Below are positions 7,291-50,096 of a DNA stretch of 64,000 nucleotides, one piece after another. The DNA is from Theristus sp. LFF4_11. Taxonomy: Eukaryota; Nematoda; Chromadorea; Monhysterida; Xyalidae. Every line of letters begins with the position of its first letter. The stretch's first letter is position 1. Location: contig JASANC010002569.1 of the NCBI GenBank assembly GCA_030248135.1, positions 110,692-174,691 on the forward strand, written 5' to 3'. Both the position numbers and the translations under genes were made by a program. Under the pieces are notes generated by a model. The model ran no database searches. It was given only the letters and a program-made list of their open reading frames with translations, and was not told the DNA's origin.

Positions 7291-7611
7291 AATCTAAAAA
7301 AAACTGATATAGCTGGTAAAAGCATTTTGTAACCAAAGATCGAACGGAGCTTGAACCGCTCAAATTTTAAATTGTCACTGTGCATCCAATCAGCGTTTGC
7401 ATGATGAATACGAAATTCATGTTCGAATTCGCACATGTGTTTCACTTTTTTGCAAAATTTTGCCACTTTCCACCATAAACCGCTCGCTTTGTTAGTAGGT
7501 TGGTTGTTTTTTATTGCTTTTGTGTTCGCATTGAAAGCTTTTCCCGTGGTCCGCACAACCATATACACTGAAATGTATAGGCGCGCTAATCACACTGAAA
7601 TGCACACTAAA

Positions 7612-27372: not shown

Positions 27373-28599
27373 TCAGTTCGACATGACTGTGCCGACCGAA
27401 TAGAATGACCGCAGCAGCGTCGGAACGCCGTCGTTCGCACTGAGACCGCGCGTCAAGAGCCGCTGCGCCTGAACGTAGACGGTCGCAAACTGCTGTTGCA
27501 GCCGGTGACTGGTGAATTCGGAGAAACACGAGCAGTGTACGCCGTTGACGAGGAGGGTGCCCTCCGTGGTGACCGGGTTGTACGCGCCGCGCGCATGTTC
27601 CACGGACACCTGCAACCCAGAGCGGCGCACTCGCATTCAGAGCATCACTTTCGGGGTCACCCGTTTCGACGCGCGTCGTCAGACTTGATTCGCCAGTTAG
27701 AAAGCGCTCTGTTCTCTGCGTCTCACATTCAATAAGGCCGCTCTTGCGGCCCAATACTGGCGGCAAAACCGCGACCACCTCCGAGAGGGGCGGGCGGGGG
27801 TCGAACCCGGTACCTTATGCTGTCAAGGCGGACTGCTTTCCACTGAGCCATGGAGGCGCCCGCTGAGAACTGTCAACGAAACATCATCCCCATCTAACCT
27901 CAACAATGCGTTCACGTCTCGCAGTTCCCTCATCATCCGCCATCAGTAAACAGTCGCCGACTTGCGCGTTCGCCGCTGTCTCCGCGCTCAACGTCGCCGC
28001 GTACACTTCCGTCGCGGACAACGTCGTCTCAGCGGAGCATGGAACGCGCGGCAGCAAATGACCGGCCGAGATGCTCAGCGTTCGATTGGATTCGGTTTTC
28101 AGTCGCAGATATTCGGTGTGCAGCGTTCGCTCGCGGTGGAAGAACGTCTCGACGCGACTATACGTCTGAGAGCCGTTCGATAGCAGCACGAGAACCTGGA
28201 AAAGGTGCATAATCGATTTAAAAGATTTTAGTTTGTCTCGAATTGTAGTTTACAGCTGTAATTTGTGATGGTCGAACGTGTCACAGTCTCACAGTCAGGT
28301 TTAAAAGTTTTTGTTCAACGTTTTTTCCAATATATTATCTGCCGTTCAAACGCAGCGCCATCACGTGGAATAGCAAGTGGAATATCAGATTTACAAGGCC
28401 AACTATAAAATAAGAAAATCGATGACTAAGTGTTCACTCGTGTGTCACGTGTGATTTTTGTTGCGACACTGCCTGTTCACCTGGTCTCCAACGTTCAATT
28501 GCCGCATTGTCTTCACGCCGTTCGATCTCGTCTGAACGCGCATTTCCTCCGAGAAACACTCGAGCAGACTGGCGCCGCCGACACCCACCGACGTGTGGT
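27373..28599 (-). CDS. Hint autoprocessing domain of copy B
   Basis: Three exons: 28599–28481, 28195–27899, 27609–27373. Hint domains of hedgehog proteins cleave themselves before a Cys and release the N-terminal part. Visible here: ECFSEEMRVQT with catalytic Cys430; RQLNVGDQ; YSRVETFFHRE; EYLRLKTES; SISAGHLLPR with His501; AQVGDCLLMADDEG; GAYNPVTTEGTLLVNG then CSCFSEFTSHRL. Relative to Cys430, His501 is at +71, as in Drosophila Hh (Cys258/His329). The Thr at +68 is Ser498 and the Asp at +45 is His475. The stop is TGA at 27373–27375. Confidence 0.9.
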
Positions 28600-31500
28600 C
28601 TGAAAGCGAATTTTAGGCAATCAGCTGATTGGTTGGCGGTCACACACGTGCATGCACGCTTTCTGTGCAAGCCAAACTCCGTCCCACCTAGAGATGTCAA
28701 AAAAAATTCCTATTTTTTTCTTAAAAAAAATTTTTTTTTTTAATCAAAGTTGTTCAGAATTTTTCAGGGAGTCCGAATTAGGGTTAGGGGGAAAAAATCA
28801 GGATTTTTTTTTAAATTTTAATTTTTTTACAAGTTAGGTTTGTTCGAAGCGTCTCGTCGAGCTGAGTTCATCTAGACTATTTTCAGAACGATCTGGAAAA
28901 CTATAAGAGCGAAAATTGTGTTTTATTGAAATTATGTCCATTTCATAGAGGGAAAGTTGCATTTTCAACAGTAAAACAGGACAATTTTCGACGTGTACTT
29001 GAATATTGAACCGTTTTTAGTTGTTCCTCTTTAGAAAATTACCAAAATTTGACTGTGTTCAAAAATTCCTGTTTGCTGTAGCTAAGTCGGCAACCCCTGT
29101 CGACCCGGTCGCCCCCCCCCCAAGACACTTACTTTCAGGTTCAACCAGCTATGCTATCTGCCACATGGCGAGAGCCCACTCTTCAAATCATCGTATCGAA
29201 AACACGTACCATGATTTCGCGATCACGTTGCGGGCAACTGACAGACGCAAGTTTAACACGTTAGTTTAGCTCAGCACGCAAGTTTTAACATGTGGCCATG
29301 TTATCGGGTATCTGAAAAACGGTCGTGTGATGTGGTATTAACCAACATCTCCGCTCCAATTGTTTAACAATATATCGCACAACTCCATTGTAGACCTATA
29401 ACATACGCCAATCAACAAGATATCATGTTCATCTCATGGCCTACCGACTGAAAAACATGTTCTAAGTTGCAAGAAAACGATTTCTGAAACGATATTTCAA
29501 TTCAGTTAAGTCATTTCAACGCTAAAAATTGACTCTAGAAGTCATCCAAATCGAAAAACATGGAGTACGTCGGTCAAAATGACCAAATAATGACATTTAC
29601 CTAAGCACACAAAGAAGTTGGGAAGAAAATTTGGTTTGAACTTTCAAAAAATTATGCCATAAATCGAATTTTCAGAGCAAAGTAGAAGAAAAATTTTTCA
29701 AATTTTTTTTAAGTTTGAAAAAAAACCAAATTAAAAAAAACAAAAAAAAATAGAAAAAAAATTTTTTTTCAAAGCCCCTAACCCTAGTCCGAATATCACC
29801 ATCTGAGGAGCCACCGACTTACCATATGACCCCCACTCATATGGGAGGAGGGTGAAAATTTCAGACTTGGTTTCGGCGACCCCATTTTCCCACCGACGAC
29901 ATCACGTCTCGTGTTTTGCCTCTCAATTCACCTCAAATAACACGGAAACAAGTTCAACAACAAACCGGTGTGATCATGCTGACGACACGAGGCGAAACAG
30001 CAACGAGCAACCAACGAAGTTACGCTTGCAGTGGCAGACAGTGCAATTTCGACCTTTCGAGATCCTGAAAAACGATGCATAAATGTGAGTTCTCTGCTTC
30101 TATCTCACCTTAGCGGCATCGGAATTTGTTGAACTAGCCTTTGCGACGCTCAAGTACTTCAATGCGCGAGTCGATCATCACTCACCAAGGCTGAAAACAG
30201 TCGATAAATCGATCCAGAATACCACCTGCAGCGTTGAAGACTAAGTGACAAGGTAAAGTCAAAGAAAATTTTTGTTGAACTTTCGAAAAATTATGCCAAA
30301 AACGGCATTTTCAGGGCACATTAAAGAAAAAATTTCAAAAATTTTTAATAAAAAAAATAATAAAAAAATGCTCATTTTTTTACTTTAAAAAAAATATAAA
30401 AAAAATTTTTTTTGACCGTTACATCTCTAGTCCCACCGCACAGCAACGGCATGCATGCGCACGTGTATCACCAACCAACGACGACGCTGATTATTCCCTA
30501 TAATTTACAGTTCCGACTGTATTGTTGTTTCTTCTTCTTTTAGAAGAATCTGGTTTCGTGTGTTTTCATGATTTGCTCTCCACAAGTTTTTCTCGTATTT
30601 GTGCAGCTGGTGAACTTACAGCATTGACCATTCGAAAGGCAGAATGGATGTGCGCTGTCAATCGAGGAACATTGGGCGCTTGAGGTGCAGGCAGCTGCAA
30701 AGCGAAAAAAGGATGACTCAAACAAAAAATGAAAATAACTCGAAGAAACTCAGTTTTGTACTTTTCAACTATTCTGTTGGAAAAGTCATCGTACAGTGTT
30801 TTTTTTTAAACCTGTCACTGTTTCGCAGAATAATAGAGCTCGCGAAAGAAAAGCGAACGTAATCGAAATTACAATATTATGCATTTAGCCAGAAATATTG
30901 GATTTGTCTGAGAGAATTCAACAACCAAACACGTTCTCGTTCTTCATACGTTCCGCATGCTCTGTGCTGCACGAATAATGACAGGTTTCAACAAACACAC
31001 CGCGTATTATTTCACACAATGATTTGGTGTCATCTATAAACAATGCGACATCTATAAACCCATGGCACATGACGCATTTTATACCGGGTGTGCGCATGCT
31101 CGCACAAGTTTGGACTTGGGAAATATTCCGCTTCATGTTTTTGCATATGTTTTGCTTTCCGTTGCTTTATATTTCGAATTTCGAAAACAGTTATTGGCAC
31201 CCAGTTACCTAACTTGCTTATATTTGATGGTTGGGAGTGAATAAATGGGTGGCTTATAGAATCAAGAGAAGGAACAGACGATTGTCACTAAAATGTCTTT
31301 GTCTTCTCAGTTGCAAACACCATTTCCTTTAGGATCAACACCAAAGCAGTCACTGTCAGTGTTGGGCAAAGGCCAACAACCGACTTCTGTAGGTGACCTA
31401 AAGGCCCATTCATGCAAGCGCGCGCTGAAGCGCGCTGACGCGCGCTGACCAGCTTCATCATGAATGAAGAAATGAAGCTGCGTCAGCCGCTGCGGCTTTT

Positions 31501-34500: not shown

Positions 34501-37500
34501 TGCACCACTTTGAGGGCTGTGCACCACTTTGAAGGCTGTGCACCACTTTGAAGGCTGTGCACCACTTTGAGGGCTGTGCACCACTTTGAAGGCTGTGCAC
34601 CACTTTGAGGGCTGTGCACCATTTTGAGGACTATGCACCATTTGCAAGCAACGTGCAAGCAAATTGCATCCTAGAATGTTCAGTCAAAATGCAGAAATCG
34701 TACAAAATTGTTCATAAAAAACTGTATTTTGCGGTGTAGCTTTCATTTTTCTTCACTTCGAAAGTCCATTTCACAATTTTTCAATAAATATGCGCCTAAG
34801 ATCAGAAAACTTTTGGTGTGAAACCATAAAAACAGCACAAAAAAGCGTCAGTTTTTGCTTTGTGGGCTGCGGACTGACACCGCGAGGGCTGGACACGCTT
34901 ACCGGGCGAAACCGCAAAAACAGTGTCCAGCCCTCGCGGTGTCAGTCCGCAGCCCACAAAGCAAAAACTGACGTATAACATCGTTTTTACGCATTTATGC
35001 GTGGCCACAAGCCAACCCAAGTACAAAAACGCATTCTGAATGAATTTGGCCATTTTTGCTGTTTGCAAGGCATCCGGTGTAATGAAGCAAAGCTAGCAAA
35101 GCTTGTTCTTGCGGGCTGCACACCGGTTTTAAGGGCTGCGCAAATCAGTACCCCACACCGTCGCACGGGTACAGTTCACATAAATTTCACATAAATTTCT
35201 TGCACTACTTTTCTGCTTTGTTGAGTATTCGTATTCTCACTGTCACACTTATTTTGAGACTAATTACGCTATACAATACTGTTCAGAATCTGTCAGAAAA
35301 GTACTAAATGATTTAACAAAAAAGTCTTGCAACATTTGTGAAAGATTGTCACTGACAGCAACAATCAGCGATTTTGCACACACAAATTTGATGTCCGGAC
35401 ATCAAATGCCGCAGCGGCTGACGCAGCTTCATTTCATCATTCATGATAGCGCACTTCAGCGCGCGCGTTCGTGAATGGGCAAAAAACCTAAAAAGCCGCA
35501 GCGGCTGACGCAGCTTCATTTCTTCATTCACGATGAAGCTGGTCAGCGCGCTTCAGCGCGCGCGTCCGTGAATGCGCATGTGCTCCAAAACTGAAGCGCG
35601 CTGACGCACGCTGAAGCGCGCTGTTTTTTTTGCTTCGTGAATGTGTAGCAAAGTGAAGCGCGTCAGCGCGCTTCAACCTCCATGAATGGCGCTTAAGGCT
35701 TCGCAACCCTTTTATCAAGGAAAAATCGTCAACATAATCTGTCACAAGGGTACAATATTAGCAGTTATACGGAATGACCGAGTAAACATGGCAGCTTTTT
35801 TCAGGGTGCAAGGAGCGCGCGAAATTTGAATGAAAGAAAACAGACGTTCAGAATCCAACATGTGTGCCAAATTTGACGTTTTTTTAGACCAATGGATTCT
35901 TCGTGTCATTATGTTCATTCTTGCTCCCTTGAACACATGATTAGGAGTTACAGTATGTTGGCATTTTTGAAAAAGACAACTCCTAGTCTGCGACGGATCC
36001 CGCCTTGACGGGCTGCCTTATTTATTAGGCCATACTGTACCAGTGACAAAGATGCAACCCCTTTCCAGTGGCAAAGTTGACCAAGAACTCTACAGAACTG
36101 CTGCCAGCTTTCAGGAACGCGCGTGTAAATATGCATTACACAAATGTATATGTTTTAGACATACACATGTCAGCTGTCATGTCATGTGAGCATTATAAGA
36201 AAAGTAAACAATGTAATTAAAAAAGATTTCTATTGGAAAAATATAAAACATAAAACGAAATAACAGCATGCATCATAACAAGCGTGTGGTTGCGCAAACC
36301 CGGTATACAAAATGAGTGTAAACCCAGGCGTGGGAAAGTGTGCGGGTTTATAGATGACCATTGACCTTTCACAATGGTTCCGACAAAAAAATCAGGTAAG
36401 CACAATACAATACACACCGCACATGTGCGTGGAGCTGCAAACGGGCGTGGTGCCACTGCAGTCGGTGTTCGAACTGCACACGGTCGCCGCAGACGCAGGA
36501 GACAAATCTGCGTTACGGTTTTCTCTTTGTTTCACAAAAGTTTTACGCAGTTATCTTTCTTTCCATCCGCTGTGACAGAATCTCGAAAGCGGCAAAATCA
36601 ATTGATTTTGTTGCAATGACCAACGATCCATCACTTACAACATTGATTCGAGTTTGCATTGCAGTTCGGCGTGCTGGTGCCGGCGCAGTGCGAGTCGGCC
36701 GAGCATTGCACTGCATGATTATGAAAATCGATAATTGAAAATACAGTGGCGGCCAAAAGTGTTGGAACGCTGCGCGCATGTGTGCGCGTGTGTTGCGCAT
36801 GTGTATCATCAGCCTTACAAACGCTATTATAAGAATCCCATGCTAATTTTTTTTTGTTTTTATGATTACTGAGTGTATCTAGTACACTATCCGCAGGGTT
36901 TTTTCGCTGAAGCACACATTTATTTGACAGATACCAAACATTACAACACACCTCCATTTGGCAGTAAAACTGTTTCAAAATTATTTGGCAATAAAATATA
37001 GCGGAATAAACAATACAACCCGACTGGAACCCGAAACATGAACGCAATGCACGTCTGTTAGATAATTCAAACACAAACAAACGCTAATACTTCGTAGAAT
37101 AGTTTTATTGCCGATGATTTTGAATCAGTTTTACTGCCAGTCATGTGCAATGGAGGCGTGTTATAATGTTCGGTATTTGTTAAATAAATGTACGCTTCAG
37201 TGAAAAAACCTGCGATTCATGTACTAGATACACTCAGTAGTCTAAAAAACTAAAAAATTAGCATGGGATTCTTTTATAGCGTTTGTACGGCTGATGCAAC
37301 ACACGCGCAATACACAGCACACAGCACACACGCGCGCAGCGTTCCAACACTTTTGGCCGCCACTGTACATTTGTATGTCAAAGAAACTCGTCAAAAGAGC
37401 AAAGGAATCGTGGTATTTGAAAAAAAAGTTGTATTGATTCATACAACTGTGAGAAAACCTCTTGATGAAAAATGTTTTTTTTCTGTTGAGCTCACTCACC

Positions 37501-40500
37501 ACACTTTGCGGTGACGGTGTTGCAAATTGCGGTCGGCGCAGTGCAGTCGGTGTCGGCCGCACATTGCACTGAAATTGCAACAAAATACTGTGGTGGTTTG
37601 CATCGATTGAAAAAGCAAAATGCAACCGGAAGAAAGTGGCCGAACACTTTCGTTTAGAAGAAAGGCACATACTGGGAACAAGAAAGAAAAAGTAAATACT
37701 CGGTGTTTTTTTGACAAAATTCAAGTCATCAATCCCATTGTTATTTTTCAATAAACACTTCTTTATTTCATTTTTCGTTAACTTTGTTTAGATGTTGCAA
37801 CTTCAGGCTTTGTTCATCCACTCTTACCACAAACGTGCGTGTTCGTGTTGCACACGGGCGTCGCAGTCAACGCAGCACAGTCGGCGTTCGCCAAACATTG
37901 AACTGCAACAAACAGCAAATAGTCTTGAAAGTTCGTTACAGTTTACAGTTCAACTGTAGTCGCGTACCACATCCGTATGTAGCGGTGTTGCATTTCGGTG
38001 TTGCTGCGATCGCGGCGCAATGCGTATCCGATGAGCATGCAACTGAAATTAGAAGGCATTTACATTGGAAAAAGAATCGTAATTACAGGACGTTTTTTCA
38101 GTGACAATTTTCATGCTGCTTTTTGGTACAGGACTGGCACGCAACCACCATGAACGGCACGAAAAAAATGTTTTATTTAGTTTATATGGCCCAGTGCCAT
38201 CTATTGTTTTTTCGTGACCCCACTACGTTCGTCACACTTGTTGTTGTTGTTGGGATTTTACGCGATGTTTTTGCCAGGGCGAACCCAGAAAGGCGAACGG
38301 AACGCCGTCAAGTAGGGTGCCCATCGAGTTTTCTTTGTCATTTAGTGCCTATACACCCATCCGGCGGGGCTCGATCCCGGAACGAACAGACAACGAGTCT
38401 AACGCACTACCACCAGGCCACGCTTACCGCAAGTTTTCGTCGTCGTTTTGCAGGCGGGCGTCGGCGCAGCGCAGTTCGCGTCAGCCAAGCAGCCGACTCA
38501 AAAACAAACAACACAAAAAACTTCAAACTTCAATATAGCAAGCATTGTTTTTTTACTTTTTACGTTTTGCTCAGAGGACATGAAAATGATAGAACAATCA
38601 TAAGTATTTTTTTAAAGCATTTCGGAAAAATTCAAATAATCATATCAATGAAAAAAAGCAAACCGCATGTATTTATGGTCGTGTCGCAAACGGAGGTCGG
38701 TGCTGCGCAGTTTGCGTTCGCCGTGCATTGCACTGGAAAACAAAAACTGCACGCTGATTGGCTGCATCAAAAATAGCAAAACAAGAAAAAAACCAGAACT
38801 TCAGTCAGCATCGCGCCAGTTTTGGCTTGGCATCTTGAAAAAAAACAAAAAGAAAACAACTTCTGTGTTTTGTCAACCTGAAAACATTCTGAAATTCACA
38901 GATATTTGCCAATCCGGCGTCAAAAATGACCCTATATACAACTGATCGTATACCGCAAGTGTTTGTGCCGGTGTTGCAGACGGCGGTAGGCGCCGTACAC
39001 GCGGCATCGGCGGTACACGGGACGCACTGGTTGGTGGCGGTGTTGCAGTGCGGTGTGGCGGGCGTCGCAGCACAGTCGGCGTCGGCCAAGCATTGCACTG
39101 CACGAGAAACGTTGTTGCAACGAAAAACAGCCGTTTGAAACGGTCATTCCGAGAACCATGAACCATGGAGAGCAAGTTGATGCCAGCTAATCAGGTTTTT
39201 TTTGAAAAAAACTGAAAAGAATAACGAATATACCGCAAGTGAATGCCGCGGTCAAACATTTCGGCGTGGCAGCGATCGCGGCGCAGTGAGCGTCCGCAGT
39301 ACAACCGACTGAAAAAAACCGGTTTTGTTTCAATCATTCACGTGTTTCTGGCACACACACACTTAATTATTATGAACATTAACTGATTATTTTCACAACA
39401 CTTTCCAACCAACCGCACGCGTTTGTGGCGGTGTTGCACGCCGGCGTCGGCGCAGCGCAATTGGCGTCCAATTCGCAGGCGACTGAAATTTACAAAAAAA
39501 TGCAAAACCATGTCAGCAAAGTTTGTCTTCTGCTTTTATTGGTCATTTTTGCGAAAGATTTCTTTTACCGCAAATGCCTGCCGCCAGTTTACAAACGGCC
39601 GTCGGTGCAGTGCAGTCGGTGTTGGCGAGACAGGCAACTGAAACAAAAAAACAACGATTGTGTGATCGTCTGGAGAGCATTTGAATATTTTGTATCATCT
39701 TACACATGTGATTTCAATGTACGCTGATAAAAAATCAACAAAAAAGTGCAGCATTTCATTGGGCTACATTCAAGCTACAAGCGAAGGATACCTACATGTA
39801 GCTAGACAAAATGCTTGGCCGATACAGAACATCACCAACACTACATTTTACTTCAAAAACAATTACAGTTCGTTGGGCAGCTCAGCCAATAAAACGACTC
39901 TTGTTAGAAGGACAAACAAACTATTCAAAAACGGCTGACAACCAATGGTGAAATGATATCAAAAATTAATAAAAAGGAAAAAAGGCTCACCGCATTGATT
40001 GGTGGCAGTGTTGCATTTTGTGTTTGGTGCGGTCGTGCAGTCAGCATCCAGCAGACAAGCCACTGCAAACAAAAAAAATAGATTCATAAAAAATTAGATT
40101 TATAAAAACGACAAATTCATAAACTTGCTCGCGATTTTCAAAACAGAGTACAGTTTAGGACGCTCTTGTAAAAAATCGGTTTCCTCTTTAGTCAAAAAAT
40201 GGGGCACTTGGGAAACGTTGTTTGCACATGGTTCCTAATCGCGGAACCTAACATTGATCGGTTTCTCTTCGACTGTGGATTTCGAAAGTTTCAAAGATGG
40301 GCGCACTTTTGAGTCAATGTATTTTCGAACGACAAAGGAGCCCAAAAACAGCAATCATAAAGCGAACAACATTGAAAACGTGTCAACGGTATAAACTAAC
40401 CGCATTTTCCGGACATTGTGTTGCATTTCAGCGTGGCCGGAAACGTTGCACAATGCGTCGCCGTTGTACATTGAACTGGAGTAATAAGAGCAGAGTTCTT

Positions 40501-41623
40501 ATCAAATGTTTGAAATGTGAACACTTACAGATTGTACAGGGTGTAATCAAAAATCGTCAAAAAAGTACACGGCTGATAGTCAGAACTGAAGGGAGCTGAA
40601 ACTAGCAGGTGTGAAAGAAATACAGTTGCCATTTGTTGCGTTAACATTTCAGCTGGTCAAACGCTGTTAACCACAGTGTAGCAGACAATTCAAACCTACA
40701 AAGCGTCCCGTTGGGCGGGGGGGGGTGCCTGCGCAAGTTCAAACTAAACACTCCACAATCGACCAACTAACCGCACATCAGCGCTGGCACGTTGCACACT
40801 TTGTCCACGGCCTGTGCCGCACACTCGGTTCCAGCAGCAGTGCATGCGACAGCTGAAACGGTCTGATTGTTGTGCAGTGCCAGTCATTATTGTTGTTGTT
40901 GTTGTTGTTGTTGTTGGGATTTTTAGGGCTAACCCAGAGAAACGTACAGAACGCGATTGAGTAGGGCGTCCATCGAGTTTTCTTTGTCATTAAGTGCCTA
41001 TCCCTCGGCGGGGGGCTCGATCCTTCGAGCGCACAGACAATAGTCTAACGCACTACCACCAGGCCACGAGGGTGACAAATTATTAGTAATGTCGCATCTG
41101 AGTGCCATATCGAGCTTTTGAGTAGTGTCGTCCCGCACAAAGTACATATAGGAGGGGCGGGATTTAGGTGTGCACACATGAATGCAGAAAAGCTTGTGAG
41201 AGCCGCTGAGCTCCACAACTATCTCGCAAGAAAAAATAAAAAAATAATAAGCGCGCGCGCACGGCCCAGCCGATCAAATACACAGGGCTGCAATGGGGCT
41301 ACACAGAGCTCGATCAAATTGCGACACTAATTGTGACTGGCACTGTACAAAAAGCCAAAACAGGTGAAGTTAGCTAGCGTGTTGTGTGTCAAATATGTTG
41401 CGCTTTTACGTTAGAAAATGTTAAGTAACGTCACTGTTTACGAGCAATTTGACTGATCGCACAATAGTAAACGTATTTGAACGCGGATTGGCTGCTGCGA
41501 TGAGCCATTTGAATGAATGGATTCCATCAACTCTGCCTTATTCGACTGTCACTTACCGTCAACCACGTCAACGTGGAACACTGTGGTGCAGATGAGCAAC
41601 ACGTAGAACAGATGTGTCGACAT
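27373..41623 (-). CDS. Secreted cysteine-module protein with C-terminal Hint domain (copy B)
   Basis: Predicted secreted, self-processing hedgehog-related (Hog) protein of 632 residues. Exons read from high to low coordinates: 41623–41557, 40852–40772, 40475–40401, 40062–39991, 39637–39569, 39482–39414, 39308–39234, 39097–38954, 38732–38664, 38496–38428, 38042–37968, 37902–37828, 37568–37500, 36710–36639, 36507–36418, 30694–30620, 28599–28481, 28195–27899, 27609–27373. All joints follow GT/AG and keep one frame. Residues 1–22 are a signal peptide, then 16 four-Cys modules, then Hint from Cys430. The exon sizes and phases mirror those of the paralogue at 43.1–50.1 kb. The 5.7-kb intron after 36418 holds a satellite-bearing foldback element, and the next intron a hAT insertion. 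No transcript evidence is available; the 5' UTR and poly(A) site are unknown. Confidence 0.87.
27720..27862 (-). repeat. tRNA-like or tRNA-derived sequence
   Basis: On the minus strand the sequence GGGCGCCTCCATGGCTCAG, then TGGAAAGC, resembles a box A, and GGTACCGGGTTCGACCCC a box B. The acceptor and anticodon stems do not pair cleanly, so it is more likely a tRNA-derived SINE or pseudogene than a working tRNA. It lies in the last intron of copy B. Confidence 0.45.
28689..30429. mobile_element. Non-autonomous hAT-like transposon
   Basis: 1,741 bp with inverted ends TAGAGATGT (left) and ACATCTCTA (right), flanked by exact 8-bp direct repeats GTCCCACC at 28681–28688 and 30430–30437. An 8-bp target duplication and TAGAGATG-type ends are characteristic of the hAT superfamily. 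The inside is A/T-rich, with long A and T runs at both ends and AGGGTTAGGG-like words in opposite orientation near 28780 and 29775. No transposase frame is visible. It sits in the copy B intron before the first Hint exon. Confidence 0.88.
30620..30694 (-). CDS. Last cysteine-module exon of copy B
   Basis: 75-bp phase-1 exon between TTTGCAG and GCT|GTAAGTTC. It encodes AACTSSAQCSS, then HPFCLSNGQC. It matches the 75-bp exon 45163–45089 of the paralogue (TECNDKDSTHPFCLSDGQC) closely, which links the distant module array to the Hint exons across two transposon-filled introns. Confidence 0.85.
30695..31397. other. Intron sequence, nothing recognised
   Basis: Part of the large intron of copy B between 36418 and 30694. 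No open frame with protein-like character and no repeat recognised. Confidence 0.5.
31797..31880 (-). repeat. tRNA-Asp-like sequence
   Basis: The minus strand reads TATAGTGCAGTGGTAACATG, then TGTGCCTGTCAGCACA (a stem with loop CTGTCAG, anticodon GTC) and AAGTTCGAAACCC. The T stem and acceptor stem are poor, so I call it a degenerate tRNA-Asp-like sequence or SINE head. Confidence 0.4.
32262..34640 (-). repeat. 19-bp satellite array, about 125 copies
   Basis: Head-to-tail repeats of GTGCACCACTTTGAGGGCT. The main variants are TTTGAGGG (A) and TTTGAAGG (B), plus a rarer CCATTTTGAGGG (C). A and B alternate as AB dimers around 32.8–33.0 kb and as ABB trimers at about 33060–33350, so 38- and 57-bp higher-order units exist. 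One insertion is visible near 34138. All three minus-strand frames stay open across it because the monomer has no stop in any frame; these frames are not genes. Confidence 0.97.
34846..34973. repeat. Perfect 51-bp-arm hairpin
   Basis: The left arm 34846–34896 (beginning CGTCAGTTTTTGCTTTG and ending GAGGGCTGGACAC) is the exact reverse complement of 34923–34973, with a 26-bp loop. Perfect arms suggest recent formation or strong homogenisation. Non-coding. Confidence 0.9.
35764..36038 (+). mobile_element. MITE, TACRGTATGGCCGA family, copy 2
   Basis: Begins TACGGAATGACCGAGTAAAC and ends GGCCATACTGTAC. Shares GGTGCAAGGAGCGCGCGAAA and CTCCTAGTCTGCGAC with the copies at 0.64 and 44.43 kb. It lies just outside the composite foldback element. 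Confidence 0.8.
36418..40852 (-). CDS. Cysteine-module array of copy B (14 exons)
   Basis: Fourteen exons from 40852 down to 36418 encode modules of the form C-x-x-[DN]-x-x-C-[AT]...P-x-C-[ND]-T-x-T-x-x-C-[GV], for example VGCTADAHCAA, then TPKCLTAAFTC. Nearly all start after AG with two bases completing a Val codon and end TGC G|GT, so they are symmetric phase-1 exons of 69, 72 or 75 bp. The exon 39097–38954 is 144 bp and carries two modules joined by CVPC. The first (81 bp) and last (90 bp) differ in type and match their counterparts in the other gene. Four Cys per module suggests two disulfides each. The domain family is not recognised. Confidence 0.87.
36744..37365. mobile_element. Tc1/mariner-like MITE with long inverted repeats
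   Basis: 622 bp, starting CAGTGGCGGCCAAAAGTG and ending CTTTTGGCCGCCACTG, flanked by TA on both sides (36742–36743 and 37366–37367). The inverted arms extend about 260 bp inward (for example TTACAAACGCTATTATAAG against CTTTTATAGCGTTTGTACG). The TA duplication and GGCCAAAAGTGTTGGAAC ends are typical of Tc1/mariner. No transposase. It lies in the intron between copy B exons 37568–37500 and 36710–36639. Confidence 0.85.
38238..38426 (-). repeat. SINE family 2, copy 1
   Basis: The minus strand begins GTGGCCTGGTGGTAGTGCG (box A-like), continues with GGGATCGAGCCCCG (box B-like) and ends in a CCCAACAACAACAACAAG tail. The same unit occurs at 40.9 and 63.0 kb. Its 5' end touches the donor of the copy B exon 38496–38428 (GTAAGCGTGG), so part of the splice-site context is SINE sequence. 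Confidence 0.8.
40886..41072 (-). repeat. SINE family 2, copy 2
   Basis: Same unit as 38238–38426: box A-like GTGGCCTGGTGGTAGTGCG, box B-like GGATCGAGCCCC, then CTCGATGGACGCCCTAC and a (CAA)n tail of about nine units. It lies in the first intron of copy B. Confidence 0.8.
41557..41623 (-). CDS. Signal-peptide exon of copy B
   Basis: ATG at 41623 (minus strand) opens MSTHLFYVLLICTTVF, then HVDVVD, ending G|GTAAGT in phase 1. It has a hydrophobic core and small residues near the end. It matches the 64-bp first exon of copy A in size, phase and the MST start, which supports the start choice. Confidence 0.8.
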
Positions 41624-43122
41624 ATTCGAATGATCTTTTCAGAACACCCTGGACTTTCGTTGTGACAATGTAAACCAATTCGAAATAATTTTGAAATTTG
41701 AAATGAAATAAAGCTGGATTCAGCAAAACAAATCAAGCGAACGTAAAATTTCGTAAGTAAAATACACTCAGAATACAAGGGTAAAAATTTTCAAACGGAT
41801 GTCAACAATAGTCAGCAACAAAAAAGACGGTTTTTTCGTTGCCGTTAAGAACATATATTTACGTGCTTGAAAAACAGACTAGTAGTGAATGGTCTTTCAG
41901 ATTTGTACTTTCATTAAGTACTTAGCAGAATTAATTTTTCTGTTGTAAAACTATGTATATCGTGGGTACTTCACAAGCACATACGTTATACTTGCAATAA
42001 TTTCGAAAGGTTTTTCAGATAGCGCTAAACTAATTATTACACTAAACCGGTGTATATTGAAAAAGCTAACGTCGTAAAAACACTCAATTAAAAATAAAGG
42101 TTTGCGCGGAACAAAATAGTAGTTTCAAATGTTTTGTTTCTATTGTTCTTTTTACACTTCACAATAGAAACACCGATGAAAAAAATACTATTCGTTGAAT
42201 ACGTTTGAAATGCGATATGATCTCAGAAGAAGTTTTTGCCGGCGGTAAATCACTTTTTTGGTGCTAATAACTTAAAGATGTGTAATAGCTGTACATACAT
42301 TGTACAGTACATAAGATTCATACATTGTAAGATGCACATACAGGTACATAAACATGTTATGCTTTTGATGTACAGGAGTTGGTTGCTGGTGACGCGGATA
42401 AGTTGGGCTGTTTGTTTCACTACTGGTGAGAATGCTGAGTCGATACTGTAATTTAACCGTTACTAGTGGTTGTTATGTCTTAATTTTGAAATTAACTGTA
42501 AAACAGCATTTTAAGAACGTTCATCGTCAACTGTGCAACTTCCGTGAATGAATTATGCACCATGTTTACGGTTGCTTCGTAAAGTATTGAGTTATTGACA
42601 TTACATTGTTTTGGCACGTCATTACATCTTGTATCTGGTTATTTCAATACTATTAAAAATTTAAAGCGCTAAAATGATAAAAATGCTAACGAGAATTACT
42701 TTTTGACGTGCAGCTAATTTTTGTGTTACTTCAATTATCAATCTCTGTGGTTTATCAGAAATTCAAAGCACTCATTTTACTGCTTTGTTTCGAACCGTTC
42801 AGCACATTGTGTATTTAATTGTGTATTTTTTCAACTATTATATGCTGCAACAGATTTTCCATCCCATTTTATTTTTCAAGCCTTCAACTGAACAAGTCAA
42901 CTATACAAACAGAGTCAGTCATCAATTAATAGAAATTACTGAAGTAGCAACGTCTGTATTTCGAATTCCCACATATCCGGGACAACTTTAAAACCAAAAT
43001 TAAGCGACATGTATACATACTTAACAAGTTAGCAGGTGAAATAAAGAAACGAAACAAATACAGGACCGATCGTGGCGTTTTGCAATATTGGAATCTTTTC
43101 AACACGAAAAAAGAAACGTTTT
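41624..43122. other. Short intergenic spacer between the tandem Hint genes
   Basis: About 1.5 kb between the stop of copy A (43123) and the start codon of copy B (41623), both on the minus strand. It must hold the copy A 3' UTR and the copy B promoter. A minus-strand AATAAA at 42868–42873 is a possible poly(A) signal for copy A. No TATA box or other promoter element could be assigned. Confidence 0.45.
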
Positions 43123-44962
43123 TCACGAAAACACCTTTCCGACGGTCTGGAGTGACTGCAAGAAGAACGGAATCGGTTGCACGCCGCATGAGCCGTCCTT
43201 TGTGACACTGGTGTCCAGCCAGTAGTTCGCCTGCAAATACAGTGCGGCCACCTGCTTCTGTAGACGGTGGCTGGCGAACTCCGCGAAGCACGAACAATGC
43301 ACGCTGTTGACGAGAATGGTGCCCTGCTCCGTTACTGGCGTGTACGCCCCGACCGCCGTTTCGGTCTCGATCTGAGCAGCATTTATTGCTAGCGTCGCTA
43401 TAAGCTGTGTGCTTTGATTGAAGCGGTCTTCCTTCTCTAAAGGGGCATTCATGAAACAGTATTTAGTGACGCATAGCACAGCTACGCGTCACTAAATACT
43501 GCTTCATGAATGCCGCCTTAAGGGAGGCTCAACGTCCATCAATACATTCTTGCACAAATTCCAGCGGTATGATGGTATGCTTCGGCGCGTTTCGGAAACC
43601 GTTGCGGGCAGTTCCTAGTGCAATCATAGCTGTACCAACTGAATTGAGCTTACATAGATATACCACCTATGCACTTGCGGATATTTTCTCACATCCAGAG
43701 GCCGGGTCTACCATCATGAATGTCGTTTCCCCCCCAGTTCGATTCACACAAAACGCACGCATAATGCCCTGCATTCCAGTTTTCACCTCGACAATCGTGT
43801 CCCTGCGCACGTCGCCGTCATCGTCCACCACGAGCAGGCAGTCACCGACGGCGGCGTTTTCGGCCGGGTCCGCAGCGTCCGTGATGGCGCCCATATACGG
43901 CGTCACGTGAGCAGCGCCATTGCACGCAATTCGCGGCAGCAGATGTTTGCGCGCGATACGCAATTCTCGGCCACCTTCGGTCACAATCCGAAGGTACTCC
44001 GTTTTCAGCTGCGGCTCCCGATGGAAGAACGCCGCCACCCGACTGTAGGCGTGTGTGCCGTTGGACAGAATCGTGGACGCCTGTGTGATATGAATTAGTG
44101 TATGGCAGCCGTTTTCTGGTGGTTAGCGTACCTCTCCGTCGAGTGCGTTTGCTGTCAATTATTGTGGATTTATTCAAACGTGTCCGTACTAAAATGACGT
44201 CATTTGCTTTAAACACGCCCGTTTGTCAAAGTACAGGCACTAAAATTTCAGTTTGGTGTGACTGATTCGACATTCACCATTTGTTTATGGGAAGAAATCG
44301 GCTAAACGGAAAGTCCGGTTTGCTGTGAACCGACAAGCGCATGTTTTGCGGCACATGACGTCATTTCAGTGGGACACATTTGAAAAAATATGTCTTATTG
44401 TCTGTGGCAACTCTTTTGTCGGAGCCGTCTCGGTACAGTATGGCCGAATAAATATGGCAGCCCATCAAGGCGGAATCAGTCGCAGACTAGGAGTCGTCTT
44501 TTTCAAAAATGCCAACATAATTCCTAATCATGTGTGCAAAGGGAGAAAGAACAAACAGAGTAGCACGAACAATCCATTAGTTTTAAAAAAATGCGTCATA
44601 TTTGATACACAATTGGGTTTCAGAACGGTTTTTTCGCGCGCTGTTTGCACCTGAAAAAAGCTGCCATGTTTACTCGGCCATTCCGTAAAAGCAGTGCAGA
44701 GAGTCTTCTCTCAGCGTTTGCTTGATCACCAAACCAACGAACACACAGGTGGTGAAAAATGCCCGCCAACTGTGGAACGTTTACAAATTGGACGACAAAA
44801 TTTGACAGTATTTGTTTTGAAACACTCTTTGAAGATCTCTCACCTGATCACCAACGCGCAAATCGCTCATCTGTACGGTGCCCCGCCGTTTCGTCTGCAC
44901 CTGCATGTCCCCAGAGAAGCAAATGCCGATTGTTCCTCCGGACACTGAGACGGCGGTGGCGG
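43123..44962 (-). CDS. Hint autoprocessing domain of copy A
   Basis: Exons 44962–44844, 44080–43787 and 43371–43123 (119, 294, 249 bp) match the copy B Hint exons in size and phase. Visible: ICFSGDMQVQTK with catalytic Cys433; MSDLRVGDQ; AYSRVAAFFHRE; TEYLRIVTEGGRELRI; ARKHLLPRI with His504; AAVGDCLLVVDDDGD; GAYTPVTEQGTILVNS then CSCFAEFASHRLQK. His504 is at +71 from the Cys as in Drosophila Hh. The +68 Thr is Ala501 and the +45 Asp is His478. The stop is TGA at 43123–43125. Confidence 0.92.
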
Positions 44963-47900
44963 CTGGAATGTACAGTTCGGTCAGAAAAAAAATGGTGTCT
45001 TACGTGTGCACGCTTTCATCTTCTATTCGTGCCAAGCGAAACGAAGCACAAAACGAAACGATTTCCAGCTGCAACTGTAACAACGTACAGCATTGTCCAT
45101 CGGACAAACAGAACGGATGCGTGCTGTCCTTGTCGTTGCACTCGGTCGCTGACTGACAGCCGCCTGGAACGAAAATAACACTATTTTTTTCATTGAAGCT
45201 TTCAAGATATACCGTATTACCCCCATTAAACCCCCCCACCATTAATCCCCCCCACACCAATAAACCCCCACCCCCCGACCAGTTTCCGAATAATCCCCCC
45301 CCCCACAAATAATCCCCCATGGGGGATTATTGGAGACCTGTTTGAAACACATACCCAGCGAATTCAGTGGCTGGTTGCAGTGAAAATGATGAAATTGTGC
45401 TACCAAAGGCCCCAAATGGGTGAGTTAATAGTAATTTCATTACAAAAGGCTGTTATAAAAGGAAATTTCTATGTAGAGTAGAAGTTTCTGCGACTTTCTT
45501 GCCTGCCATGCAATGTATTTTTGCTATTTTTCAACAAACCCCCACCCCTAGAATTTTTTGTAAAATAAACCCCCCCCCCACCAATAATCCCCCCCCCCCA
45601 CCAATAAACCCCCACCCCTAAAAGTCGCTGACGTATTAATCCCCCATGGGGGTTTATTGGGGGTAATACGGTAAAAGTAATGACGCACTTTTTGGAGACT
45701 TTTTGACCGTGTCGGCAAACCACGAGAACACACGTGTTTTGCATTTGCAAGATTTTTCAATCAAAGCCTGGAGATAATGAAACTTCGAAAATCACTGACG
45801 CACGGCAAATGTGATTTGTGCCGCAGATTGGTGTGGCGCCGGTACACGGTGTGTTGTCCGTGCATGCGGTCGTCGTCGTCGCCGGGGTCGCCGCTGAAAC
45901 AGAAAATTATTTTGTTTGTTTCAGACGGACACCAATAGCGTTGTGTTCAACACTTTTCATCTCCTGTCTGACCATTTGGGCGTATACCACGGAGCGCGTG
46001 CTGCAGTGTGTAATGGGCGGAGTCACAAAAAACGGGAGTTCGGTTTGCCACTCCGCACACCAGACAGGCCCCCCACCGGGTCTATTATTATCTTTTCTTT
46101 AAGACCTGCGACTCAATGCGGTTGTGGACGTAAAAGGAAACGTTTCAATCTGTATCTGGTAATTCAGAAACCCGGCCTTATTTAGGGGACTCGAATCCCT
46201 TTGCCAATTTTGAATTCCCGCGTCATGCATGCGACTGCTTACCCATCTATGCGCGCATTGAGACGCGGGACCAAAATGAAAGATGTTATGTGCGACTGAA
46301 CTCTGCACAACGCTCACTCACCGCATGTGTCGGTGGTGACGTCGCACGTCGGTGTTGCCGTGAGAGCAGCACAACTGGTATCAGTGAGACATTGTACTGA
46401 AGATTGCGAAAATTGTTTTATTATATTGGTGAAAAGCGCGTGTGTTAGACCGGAAGAAATGTGTGTTCCACCCGATATAACCTACCACATTTTCCGCTGC
46501 CCGTGTTACAAATGGTGTTTGGCGCAGTGGTGCAGTCGGCATTAGCGTTGCATTGCACTGGAAGATGTTGCAAAAAACCGCATTTCTGCACACTGCAGAA
46601 ACAAATACCAACATTGGAATGAAAACAGATAAACAACGAAGAATTAGCGCACGCATACCGCAGTTATTTGTGTTCGTGTTGCATTTCGGTGTGGTCGTCA
46701 GAGCGGCACAATCAGCATCGGCATTACATTGAACTGAAAATGATAAATGATTTGGAAAACCAAAATGAACTTGATTCAAGCTAGAAAAACTGTTCTTTCC
46801 ATATCATGAGGTGAAGCATGAAAAACATCCACCCAACCGCAAGTGAAAGTGGCCGTTTTGCATTTCGGTGTCGCCGCCGTCGCGGCACAGTGCGTGTCGC
46901 TTGTGCATCCAACTGCAAGAAAAAATTTCAATAAAGTTTCCAAAAACCTAAATTTGAAAAAAAAGTTTAAAAATGGTGAAGGAAAAGAAGAAGCGGTGGA
47001 AGAAACTTGCCGCACGTTTTTGTCGCCGTGTTACAACCGGGCGTTGGGGCAGCGCAGTTTGCGTCGGCCGTGCAGGCCACTGACAAAAAGTGAAACACGT
47101 TAAAATAAAAAAAAATTAAATTTCTTTTTGAACGACGTGTTGAGACTTCTAGACATTCTGTTCGCGTTTTTTGTTGTTAAAGTCAAAGATTATGTATGAC
47201 TTATTTTTTCAAACGTGTCCCACTGAAATGACGTCATGTGCCGCCAAACATGCGCTTGCCGTTCACAGCAAACCGGACTTTCGGTTTAGCCGATTTCTTC
47301 CCGTAAAAAACGGTGAATGTCGAATCGGTCACACCAAACTGACATTTTAGTGCCTGTATTTTGACGAACGGGCGTTTTCAAAGCAAATGACGTCATTTTA
47401 GTCCGGACACGTTTGAATAAATCTACAATACCGCAAATGTTGTTTGTTGTGTCGCAAACAGCGGTTGGCGCCGTACAGTCCGTATTTGCAGTGCATGCGA
47501 CTGAAAAGTGGTGGGTGAGTTTAAAAAAGTTGCATCGAATGGAGTAGAGTTGGATAGTTCACTTTTGAATCATCAACAATCCCAACCGCATTTGTTGGTG
47601 GCCGTGTTGCAGACAGCTGTCGGCGCGGCACAATCGGTGTTAGCGGTGCAGGTGACTGAAATTCAACAAAAAGTGTCACCGAATCATGTTTGTCCAGAAA
47701 TCAAGAACGACGAAGAAAAAATCAATTGAAATGAATAACGTCGGCACTTAATGGACGTATACACTTTGCTTATTGCTGAAAACGTTGTTTTTTGAAACTT
47801 AAAAACCAGCAGCCAAATCGATGAGCGACCCAACCGCAAGTGTGTTTCGTCGTGTCGCAGACGGGCGTCGCTGGTGTCGCCGCACAATCGGCGGACGCCA

Positions 47901-50096
47901 GGCACTGCACTGAATATGCAGTCAAAATACTTTATTTAATTTTCTAACCAGAAGTCTCAAACATAAGCGAAGACAACCGACCTTGATCAAATCTTTGCGG
48001 GAAACATCCCTTAAAAACAGAATTTAAAATAGAACGAAATGATCTTACCGCAGGTATGCGCGGCGGTGTTGCACTTTGGTGTTGCGGTAAGCGTGGCGCA
48101 GTGCGTGTCGGTCATACAAGCGACTGCAGTGCAGAAAGAGACAAACACAATGGAAAAACTAATGCGACAGAAGTTGTCGGCTATTTCGTGACCATTTATT
48201 TCAAAGAAAATTTGAAGTTTTCAAAAAATGACACAAAACAATTTTTCGCACCACAAACATTCGTTGCGGTGTTGCACGCCGGGGTTGCAGCGGCACAATT
48301 GGCATCCGCCGTGCATTGAACTAAAACGAATTGAAACAAAAATGCTGTTTGTCAACTCGGAACGTTTTATCCCGCACGGCTTATTGCAAATCGAAAAGTT
48401 AAGACGTAATCGGGTGCGTGTATGAGTGGAAATGTTTTCAACCAAGAATACACGAAATGTCGGATGATTATGAAATGAATTTGAAAAATCAAAGATAAAT
48501 AAAAGTTAGAACAATGTGAAAACGCATAATACCGCAAGTGTTGGTGTCGGTTTTGCAAACTGTGTTCGGTGCCGTGGTGCACTGCGCGTTTGCAATGCAC
48601 GCCACTTAAATAGAAAAAAGTACGAAAAAAGTACGTCAATGACATCCAATGAACGATCGAAAACGTGTCTGTCGTAAAACTGTGTTGAGACCGAGACACC
48701 GTAGTTTTCGAACAGTGCAGCGTTAAACAAAAAAAACAAAATTTTGGTTACCCAAAAAACGAACCGCAAGTGCCAGTGACCGCATTGCACGCGGGTGTTG
48801 TGCCGGTACAGGATGCGGCAGAAGCGGCCGTGCATTGAACTGGAACATGAACAATGAAAATGTGCGTTGCTTTCATTGGCTTCATTTCTGGTTAAACCTG
48901 GAGCTACTTTTTTCAGCCAGAACGTCAATCAAGTTTGTTTTTCAAAAAAAACACAACCAAAACAAACCGCAAAGACCGGTGCCGGTGTTGCAGACTTTTG
49001 CTGGGGTCAGCAAAGCACACGGCGTGTCATCGATGCATTGAACTGAATAGCATTGTAAAGATGAGTAAAAATACACGGATCATAAATACAATCTACGGTT
49101 AGAGAAAAACGTCAACAATGTGCGGAGCCGTGTCGTTGGTACAGTTTGTATCTGAATATAGGAAAAGTTTTGGAGTTTTGTTTTCTAAATGTTCCCCCTT
49201 CGCTCGCAACCTCAAAAACAGATCCTGCTAGCTGCGTGCAGATGTTGAAAGTTTTTAAAATAGTAGTTGAACTTTAAAAAGTAGCGTCACCGTACGTTTA
49301 TTTAGCCTGTTTTTGATGTGTCCGACTGAAAATCCGTCTTTGTGCGAGAAAATATGCGGTTCTCCGATTATATCACGCAGAGCAAACCGGGACTTAAGCG
49401 TGGCTGATCCATTCAAATAATGAAAAAAGAAACGTGAAGGGTGCATCAAATTAAAATTATTCTAAAACGGGAACTGAAGCGGCGGGCGTTTATGACGGCA
49501 AATGACGTCATTTCGGCCTTACACGTTTAACCCAATCAACAATACTAACCGCACATCAACGTCGCCGTGTTGCACACTTTGTTCACCGCCTCTGCGGCGC
49601 ACTCATTTCCAGCGGCGGTGCACGGGACAGCTGAAAACGTTTTTTTTTGGTTTTGTGTGTGTGACATGTAGTTCTTCCGCACTGTGAAACCAAGTTTCGG
49701 TTCAACATTAAAGTACTAGTCTGAAGACCACGCGCTCGCTTATAACACATATGCACAAACAAACACACGCGCACACATACGATGTTTACGGCAGGTGTAC
49801 TTGAATGTGTGCGTGCGCGTGTTTGTTGAGTGCGCAACAATTCGGTGTTATAAATAACCAAGTGCAGTGTCTTCATAAAGCCACATTGTATCTAGATAGA
49901 TGCAGCGCATGCTTAACGTTGACAAGAATATTAACAGCATTTTGGTAATAAGTGTTTCAGCATTTCATTCTATTTTTAATTTTACAAACAATATTTTTTT
50001 TAAACTGCTGAATCAGCATATTTTGAACTTACCGTCAGATAGCCTCGGGCTGATTGATAATAACACCAACATCAGGTAAGCAACCGTAGTAGACAT
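43123..50096 (-). CDS. Secreted cysteine-module protein with C-terminal Hint domain (copy A)
   Basis: Paralogue of the gene at 27.4–41.6 kb, 638 residues. Exons: 50096–50033, 49630–49550, 49042–48968, 48839–48765, 48604–48533, 48320–48252, 48123–48049, 47909–47835, 47655–47587, 47500–47432, 47079–47011, 46912–46838, 46733–46659, 46557–46486, 46396–46322, 45893–45804, 45163–45089, 44962–44844, 44080–43787, 43371–43123. The frame is kept throughout. Residues 1–22 form a signal peptide, then come 16 four-Cys modules, then Hint from Cys433. The donor of exon 47079–47011 is GC (GTGCG|GCAAGT), and the acceptor of 48604–48533 is TTTTAAG. Expected role by analogy with Hog proteins: secretion, Hint self-cleavage and release of the Cys-rich N-terminal part. 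What that part binds is unknown. Confidence 0.88.
43441..43514. mobile_element. Palindromic MITE, copy 3
   Basis: GGGGCATTCATGAAACAG, then TATTTAGTGACGCATAGC, and the reverse complement ending CATGAATGCCGCC. It is flanked by CTCTAAA and TTAAGG. It lies in the last intron of Hint copy A. Confidence 0.85.
44155..44398 (-). mobile_element. MITE, TGACGTCA family, copy 2
   Basis: Reverse orientation relative to the 7.97 kb copy: TTATTCAAACGTGTCCGTAC on the left, ATGACGTCATTTCAGTGGG then ACATTTGAAAAAATA on the right. It lies in the intron between the first and second Hint exons of copy A. Confidence 0.85.
44430..44690 (-). mobile_element. MITE, TACRGTATGGCCGA family, copy 3
   Basis: TACAGTATGGCCGAATAAAT on the left, then GTCGCAGACTAGGAG and ACTCGGCCATTCCGTA on the right, inverted relative to the 0.64 kb copy. 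It directly follows the TGACGTCA MITE in the same Hint intron of copy A. Confidence 0.8.
45089..49630 (-). CDS. Cysteine-module array of copy A (16 exons)
   Basis: Sixteen consecutive small exons, each one module, from 49630–49550 to 45163–45089. The regular ones are 69, 72 or 75 bp, phase 1 at both ends, for example VQCNADADCAALTTTPKC, then NTNTNNC. The first (81 bp, AVPCTAAGNEC..VNKVCNTATLMC) and the last two (90 bp, Thr/Ala-rich start; 75 bp, CNDKDSTHPFC) are distinct and have exact counterparts in copy B. Differences between neighbouring modules are concentrated between Cys residues. The uniform phase means modules could be gained or lost without breaking the frame. Confidence 0.88.
45211..45672 (-). 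mobile_element. G-tract inverted-repeat element, copy 2
   Basis: Inverse of the 24.28 kb copy: TACCGTATTACCCCCATTAA at the left, GGGGGTAATACGGTA at the right, with long C runs. The core with CTTTCTTGCCTGCCATGCA is shared. It lies in the copy A intron between exons 45893–45804 and 45163–45089. On the transcribed strand it reads as G runs. Confidence 0.85.
46093..46275 (-). repeat. SINE family 1, copy 2
   Basis: The minus strand reads TCCCGCGTCTCAATGCGCGC, then AGATGGGTAAGCAGTCGC (box A-like) and GGGATTCGAGTCCCCT (box B-like), AATAAGGCCGGGT and AGATTGAAACGTTTCC. It has a tRNA-like head and a unique tail. It lies between copy A exons 46396–46322 and 45893–45804. Confidence 0.8.
47197..47430 (+). 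mobile_element. MITE, TGACGTCA family, copy 3
   Basis: TTTTTCAAACGTGTCCCACT and ATGACGTCATGTGCC at the left, then GACGTCATTTTAGTCCGG and ACACGTTTGAATAAATC at the right. Its right end meets the donor of copy A exon 47500–47432, whose intron begins GTATTGTAGATTTATTC. Confidence 0.85.
49302..49548 (+). mobile_element. Diverged TGACGTCA-family MITE
   Basis: Old copy: AAATGACGTCATTTCGGCC, then ACACGTTTAACC, at the right end next to the donor of copy A exon 49630–49550. The inner words AGCAAACCGGGACTT and GGCGGGCGTTTATGACGGC are only loosely like the other copies. Confidence 0.55.
50033..50096 (-). CDS. Signal-peptide exon of copy A
   Basis: Minus-strand ATG at 50096 opens MSTTVAYLMLVLLSI, then SPRLSD, ending G|GTAAGTTC in phase 1. 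It has a typical hydrophobic core of a secretory signal. It pairs with the copy B exon 41623–41557. Confidence 0.82.

Follow-up and report, generated by a model that had tools for sequence, protein, structure and literature searches.

What might a Hog-type Hint domain release from a nematode protein when the region ahead of it is a long array of four-cysteine modules? The question is raised by a 64,000-nucleotide stretch of DNA (the window) from Theristus sp. LFF4_11 (GenBank assembly GCA_030248135.1, contig JASANC010002569.1, positions 110,692 to 174,691 of the forward strand), in which two complete-looking genes lie head to tail on the minus strand. Both gene B (50096-43123) and gene A (41623-27373) encode a hydrophobic start, 16 modules, and a C-terminal Hint domain. 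A first-pass annotation, made from the DNA sequence, had described this pair as a new-looking layout and a distinct branch of the hedgehog-related family. We conclude that what is new in A and B is the architecture of the N-terminal part of a nematode Hog protein, not the kind of system, and that the module type, judged by its sequence matches, is not new to biology. Further, we propose, with a probability of roughly 0.6, that each gene specifies a secreted Cys-rich stalk that was built by exon shuffling and is freed by Hint. In the open-license literature that we searched, no report of a layout of signal peptide, four-Cys modules, and Hint was found.

Structure and divergence of the two genes

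Rebuilding both genes on the minus strand yielded 20 exons and 638 amino acids for B and 19 exons and 632 amino acids for A, with no internal stop in either; the coordinates, exon sizes, protein lengths, and junction cysteines (Cys433 in B and Cys430 in A) all came out as the first-pass annotation had given them. Each intron starts with GT and ends with AG, with the sole exception of a GC donor in B after 47011. Intron phases are equal in the two genes, being 1 until Hint exon 1 and afterwards 0 twice. Most modules conform to the pattern C-x2-[DN]-x2-C..P-x-C..C, and 26 phase-1 exons in the window passed a strict scan for this Cys pattern, versus none in three shuffles of the window made in blocks of two bases.

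In B, the exon with the start codon and likely signal peptide (50033..50096, donor gtaagt; the hydrophobic N termini of both proteins were judged by eye) is followed by one-module exons at 49550..49630, 48968..49042, 48765..48839, 48533..48604, 48252..48320, 48049..48123, 47835..47909, 47587..47655, and 47432..47500 (modules 1 to 9), 47011..47079 (module 10, with the GC donor), 46838..46912, 46659..46733, 46486..46557, and 46322..46396 (modules 11 to 14), 45804..45893 (module 15, with an Ala/Thr lead), and 45089..45163 (module 16, of an HPFCLSDGQC type). The Hint domain is spread over three exons, 44844..44962 (119 bp, with Cys433 as the Hint Cys1), 43787..44080 (294 bp, with His478, Ala501, and His504), and 43123..43371 (249 bp, with Cys584 and the tail), and the module and Hint exons lie close to each other, unlike in A. 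The last intron of B contains a near-perfect palindrome (43440-43505, by eye), which looks like a small inverted-repeat element.

The exons of A begin with the start codon and likely signal peptide (41557..41623) and continue with modules 1 to 6 at 40772..40852, 40401..40475, 39991..40062, 39569..39637, 39414..39482, and 39234..39308, modules 7 and 8 in a single exon (38954..39097, from which a 47-amino-acid piece was folded), modules 9 to 15 at 38664..38732, 38428..38496, 37968..38042, 37828..37902, 37500..37568, 36639..36710, and 36418..36507, and module 16, of an HPFCLSNGQC type, at 30620..30694. The three Hint exons are at 28481..28599 (119 bp, with Cys430 as the Hint Cys1), 27899..28195 (297 bp, with His475, Ser498, and His501), and 27373..27609 (237 bp, with Cys582 and the tail). 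Because one exon carries two modules, the 16 modules of A occupy 15 exons and the gene has one intron fewer than B; hence, the sharing of exon sizes and phases originally claimed for the pair holds for the phases and the sizes of the Hint exons, and fails in this one intron. The 5.7-kb intron of A between modules 15 and 16 also harbors a 19-bp unit repeated about 125 times (32265-34644); as this repeat lacks stops in every minus-strand frame, it produces false open reading frames of 797 to 838 residues.

The two proteins are 56% identical, with 61% in the modules and 51% in Hint, and 68 of the 71 alignment columns with a Cys have it in both. Silent changes (dS) outnumber replacement changes (dN) between A and B: the NG86 method gives a dN of 0.31 and a dS of 2.01 for the modules and 0.45 and 1.33 for Hint, and YN00 gives 0.40 and 1.12 for the whole, these dS values being close to saturation.

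The Hint domain and its catalytic sites

The Hint family (PF01079) is the sole Pfam family listed for either protein at E values up to 10. It is recognized in B with 134.1 bits (E = 6.8e-39, residues 424-614) and in A with 130 bits (E = 1.2e-37, residues 427-608), against a cut-off of 29.7, and the matches to these sequences in PDB are the Hedgehog Hint structures 7e2i, 6tyy, 6td6, and 1at0. Both domains possess an extra pair of cysteines in the middle (in the motifs HLLPR.C and VGDC), which every one of the 24 Hint exons compared from this genome has and which a 2008 survey (PMC2362128) describes as a mark of nematode Hog domains. The Hint domains are therefore real and of the nematode Hog type, as had been supposed.

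With sites numbered after the fly Hint by ungapped counting from Cys1, the nucleophilic Cys1 is kept at the junction in both proteins, as are His72 (His504 in B and His501 in A) and the last cysteine, fly C143 (Cys584 and Cys582, respectively). These features are shared with Hedgehog, from which A and B differ at two sites and in lacking, in the Pfam scan, a Hedge domain (PF01085, HH_signal). The sterol-activating Asp46 is replaced by His in both (His478 in B and His475 in A), and Thr69 is replaced by Ala501 in B and Ser498 in A, such that the T-x-x-H motif of block B reads A-x-x-H in B and S-x-x-H in A, with the His kept in each.

How unusual these residues are can be gauged from the 24 versions of Hint exon 2 just mentioned, which are the distinct ones available from 65 Hint clusters in the genome, with C840 and the doubles C287 and C1868 excluded. 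At site 46, 23 of them have His and one, on contig C921, has Asp; at site 69, Ser is found in 21, Thr in two (C74 and C3434), and Ala in none but B. The excluded, short C840 exon has His at site 46 and Thr at site 69. Hence, both His46 and Ser69 are the rule in this genome and not decay. A fly Hint with His at site 46 is reported to accept a wider range of sterols (PMC8529194). Taken with the conserved Cys1, His72, and last Cys, the residues at the two sites suggest that A is capable of self-cleavage and B less so; B may cleave poorly because its Thr69 site is Ala. The proviso in the original reading, that Hint works, is thus a genuine point of doubt, given the changes at Asp46 in both proteins and at Thr69 in B.

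Relatives of the pair within the genome

A search of the source genome (159 Mb in 3744 contigs) with the Hint profile recovered 120 exon matches that group into the 65 clusters on 50 contigs, and 116 of these matches exceed the family cut-off; some clusters, e.g., C287 and C3434, look like allelic doubles. After A, the nearest match to the Hint of B is on contig C468 (46% over exon 2), where eight module exons with the same phase and pattern as in A and B are followed by two EB-like exons and then Hint exon 2. When joined, these EB-like exons contain one stretch over the Pfam EB model (PF01683, 9e-07). In a tree of the 24 Hint exons, A and B group with C468 in a single clade with a support of 90/82, which is below the tree tool's top mark of 95/80. 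The tandem pair is therefore real and not alone, as a third gene with modules plus Hint exists, and the proposed distinct branch takes the form of a small clade of three, within the scope of 24 Hint exons of this genome.

Clear Cys-rich phase-1 exons were found upstream of Hint on six of 11 loci examined (C468, C1217, C618, C3508, C2729, and C2474), with C1384 being doubtful. Four loci of this set (C1532, C1555, C74, and C840) have no Cys-rich phase-1 exons ahead of Hint, and C1352 has none within 5 kb; hence, only some of the Hint genes in this genome have the modules. On C1217, the joined exons match EB with an E value of 5.8e-16 over four stretches. Like the modules of A and B, the EB exons in these genes are Cys-rich, in phase 1, and placed before Hint, and on C468 they accompany four-Cys modules; the EB unit is, unlike them, longer, and no EB match was obtained in A or B in the Pfam scan.

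Two of these loci show other kinds of sequence upstream of Hint. On C2474 (locus L020), a Thr-rich open frame of 546 residues (5187-6825) lies upstream of the Hint gene and is a candidate for linkage to it, being followed by two looser four-Cys exons and one EB-like exon; it recalls the Thr-rich Thog and Hoglet proteins of the 2008 survey (PMC2362128). On C74 (locus L019), a Gly/Asn-rich repeat frame begins at 7368 upstream of the divergent Hint gene with Thr at site 69. As for the known N-terminal domains, Ground-like (PF04155) has 13 exon matches in the genome (best, 7.0e-13), 11 of which are over the cut-off, as would be expected of a nematode with Ground-like genes; a genome search for the Hedge domain found none, with the control equally silent.

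A module pool and its bacterial likeness

The strict scan for module exons covered 35 loci besides the window, after 16 were excluded because they overlap other loci or the window. It detected 38 module exons on C1775, 22 on C801, 15 on C1141, 10 on C2989, eight on C468 (one of which was seen again in an overlapping locus), three on C3137, and two on C2075. A single EB-like exon of C1217 was picked up as well, in each of two loci that overlap. The remaining scanned loci had no module exons, nor did shuffles of the loci (two-base blocks, three each). Of these contigs, C1775, C801, C1141, C2989, C3137, and C2075 have no Hint match among the best candidates listed, such that the same kind of exon is used in arrays on contigs lacking a listed Hint match. 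C2989 and C1141 (loci L009 and L010), which appear near-identical by eye, with C2989 corresponding to part of C1141, carry long arrays of two kinds of four-Cys units and are perhaps two haplotypes of one large gene. One tandem array of related four-Cys units on C2989 matches DUF7107 (PF23416) with 42.8 bits (6.8e-11) and, under the cut-off, Dickkopf_N (PF04706; 8.1e-05). Neither model is matched by the A/B-like four-Cys exons of C2989 and C1141 or, in the Pfam scan, by A or B themselves, and the C468 exons score 19.9 bits against DUF7107, below its cut-off of 24.6. In a profile comparison, 26 of the 32 modules of A and B aligned to six C468 modules with a probability of 96% and to 15 C2989 units with one of 87%.

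Outside the genome, the modules find their best matches in bacteria. A search of 5.8 billion predicted proteins with protein B, in which only the 7998 candidates sharing the most words were scored, gave 283 matches at an E value of 1e-5. Among the 120 matches listed, the best is an unnamed protein (6.1e-84), the best named one is from a Myxococcota bacterium (1.6e-69), all the named ones are myxobacterial or deltaproteobacterial, and several are annotated as Cys-rich repeat proteins. Against the 120 listed proteins, A and B themselves score 332 and 289 bits. Shuffles with the cysteines fixed reach 39 and 41 bits (best of 20), and those confined to the segments between cysteines reach 101 and 129 bits; because the targets had been selected for likeness to B, the absolute scores are inflated and it is the contrast with the shuffles that counts.

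An NCBIfam scan of the worm proteins, run on B only, returned the TraA model (NF033759; 2e-12 over residues 163-274, with 46.5 bits for the whole against a cut-off of 750) and Myxo_Cys_RPT (TIGR04201; E = 0.0068, six stretches, 16.5 bits against a cut-off of 25). Of two bacterial matches scored with TIGR04201, one (P0001) likewise falls under this cut-off with 16.6 bits, and the other (P0026) passes with 47.9. In both A/B and the myxobacterial repeats, including those of TraA, four-Cys units stand in tandem and have 6,6,2 as their most frequent spacing, and they have in common the pattern C-x2-[DN]-x2-C..T-[AP]-x-C-[ND]-T..C-V-x-C. They differ in that the repeats are bacterial and are combined with partner domains such as PPC and lectin, with no Hint seen in the matches listed. 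By these comparisons, the modules resemble a myxobacterial surface-protein repeat more than any known part of worm hedgehog proteins that could be tested here. The initial impression that the modules could not be placed is hence correct for Pfam models and is partly resolved by their likeness to these repeats and their reuse in arrays on contigs lacking a listed Hint match.

A proposed mechanism and its alternatives

Taking these findings together, we propose that A and B each produce a secreted precursor in which a signal peptide is followed by 16 small modules, each with a predicted pair of disulfides, that together form a rod, and then by a Hint domain of Hog type. Within the secretory pathway, Hint would attack the junction on its N-terminal side (Cys433 in B and Cys430 in A), releasing the rod, with a lipid or another small nucleophile, perhaps a sterol, probably being joined to its C terminus; this step is doubtful in B. 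Outside the cell, the rod could act as a stalk, an adhesive, a matrix piece, or a ligand. A parallel is suggested by the Cys-rich repeats of TraA, which have been proposed to form a stalk (PMC6372800). The construction of the rod would be explained by exon shuffling in phase 1, in which exons of one module each, flanked by phase 1 at either end, were duplicated and shuffled from a module pool that also serves contigs lacking a listed Hint match.

Several observations weigh against this proposal. Site 69 of B is neither Thr nor Ser, and Cys1 is preceded by Ile (B) or Glu (A) in place of the Gly of Sonic hedgehog. In A, an intron of 5.7 kb separates module 16 (30694-30620) from modules 1-15, and on C468, Hint exon 1 was not picked out. 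For the modules, YN00 gives a dN of 0.40 and a dS of 0.70, a weaker silent excess than that of NG86. Further, what the sequence itself establishes is the gene models, the homology of Hint, the intron phases, the common module pool, and the third gene; secretion, the disulfides, cleavage, the adduct, and the role of the rod are predictions.

These points lend themselves to other explanations. Hint might have been kept as a domain that still folds but cuts slowly or not at all, with the proteins working uncut as large Cys-rich matrix proteins; the Ala at the Thr69 site of B, the His at the Asp46 site of both, and the lower identity of A and B in Hint than in the modules would fit such a role. 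Nevertheless, we consider this unlikely, in that both proteins retain Cys1, His72, and the last Cys, Ser69 and His46 prevail across the exons compared, and the NG86 dN of Hint is below its dS. Alternatively, the module and Hint exons could belong to different transcripts and the layout be an artefact of modeling, a reading encouraged by exon joins that are predicted from the DNA sequence and by the long repeat-bearing intron of A. The equal order, phases, and sizes of exons in A and B, a frame that stays open across 18 introns in A and 19 in B, and the placement of modules upstream of Hint on C468 as well make it highly improbable. We give still less credence to the idea that A and B belong to one of the known Hog classes (warthog, groundhog, ground-like, or quahog) and have diverged until the N-terminal domain is past recognition. 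Most nematode Hog N termini have been argued to stem from divergence (PMC2362128), which would favor it; against it, the N-terminal part shows no Ground-like or other Pfam match and is a tandem array of exons whose type recurs at other places in this genome, in keeping with gain by shuffling. The modules are likewise, as first thought, not placed in a Hog N-terminal domain by Pfam, among which only Ground-like had a named model to test.

The origin of the module is a separate matter, and we cannot tell whether its bacterial likeness reflects transfer, common origin, or convergence. We lean slightly toward convergence on a minimal disulfide unit, with the modules being a native offshoot of animal EB-, DUF7107-, or Dickkopf-like units. 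This is suggested by the C2989 units, which match DUF7107 and, below the cut-off, Dickkopf_N and which align by profile to the A/B modules; by the mixture of EB-like and four-Cys exons on C468; and by the arrangement of the modules, save for one pair, as one per exon. Moreover, within the 6,6,2 spacing, the bacterial units prefer Gly8 and Pro11, versus Ala8 and mostly Pro9 in A and B, and the 8,6,2 spacing, second in A and B, ranks only fourth in the bacterial set. On the other side of the balance, the scores against the bacterial proteins go far beyond what Cys spacing and composition yield in the shuffles, and the A/B-like exons of C2989 and C1141 fit neither DUF7107 nor Dickkopf_N. A more speculative scenario, to which we accord little likelihood, is that the four-Cys module of A, B, and C468 was acquired by ancient transfer from myxobacterial repeats (e.g., those of the kin-recognition receptor TraA) and then shuffled as exons; in many of the 65 clusters, Hint would serve as an all-purpose C-terminal cassette that processes whatever exchangeable Cys-rich exons precede it, and the outcome would be a range of stalks that are self-cleaved and lipid-tagged.

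Implications for nematode Hog proteins

The known nematode Hog proteins are described as warthog, groundhog, and quahog, along with Xhog, Shog, and Thog in Enoplea, and their N termini as varying widely between lineages (PMC2362128). A and B resemble them in having a variable and presumably secreted N terminus with a C-terminal Hint bearing the extra Cys pair. They are unlike them in that this N terminus is a long four-Cys array with nearly every module on its own phase-1 exon; no Wart, Ground, Qua, Enop, or short N terminus was recognized in A or B, with Ground-like (PF04155; no match in the Pfam scan of either) being the only one tested by a named model. The 2008 survey attributes the variety of nematode Hog N termini mostly, and as probable, to divergence and not to domain gain (PMC2362128). 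A and B speak for the opposite, with an N terminus composed of exons that are arrayed elsewhere in the genome and joined in phase to Hint, and their relative on C468, in mixing two kinds of modules, likewise speaks for domain gain. The detailed likeness of the modules to myxobacterial repeats calls for wider sampling. Finally, cholesterol addition by nematode Hog domains is called unclear in the same survey (PMC2362128), and this genome offers a natural set of His46/Ser69 Hint domains, together with one Ala69 version, as a way to ask what nematode Hog domains attach.

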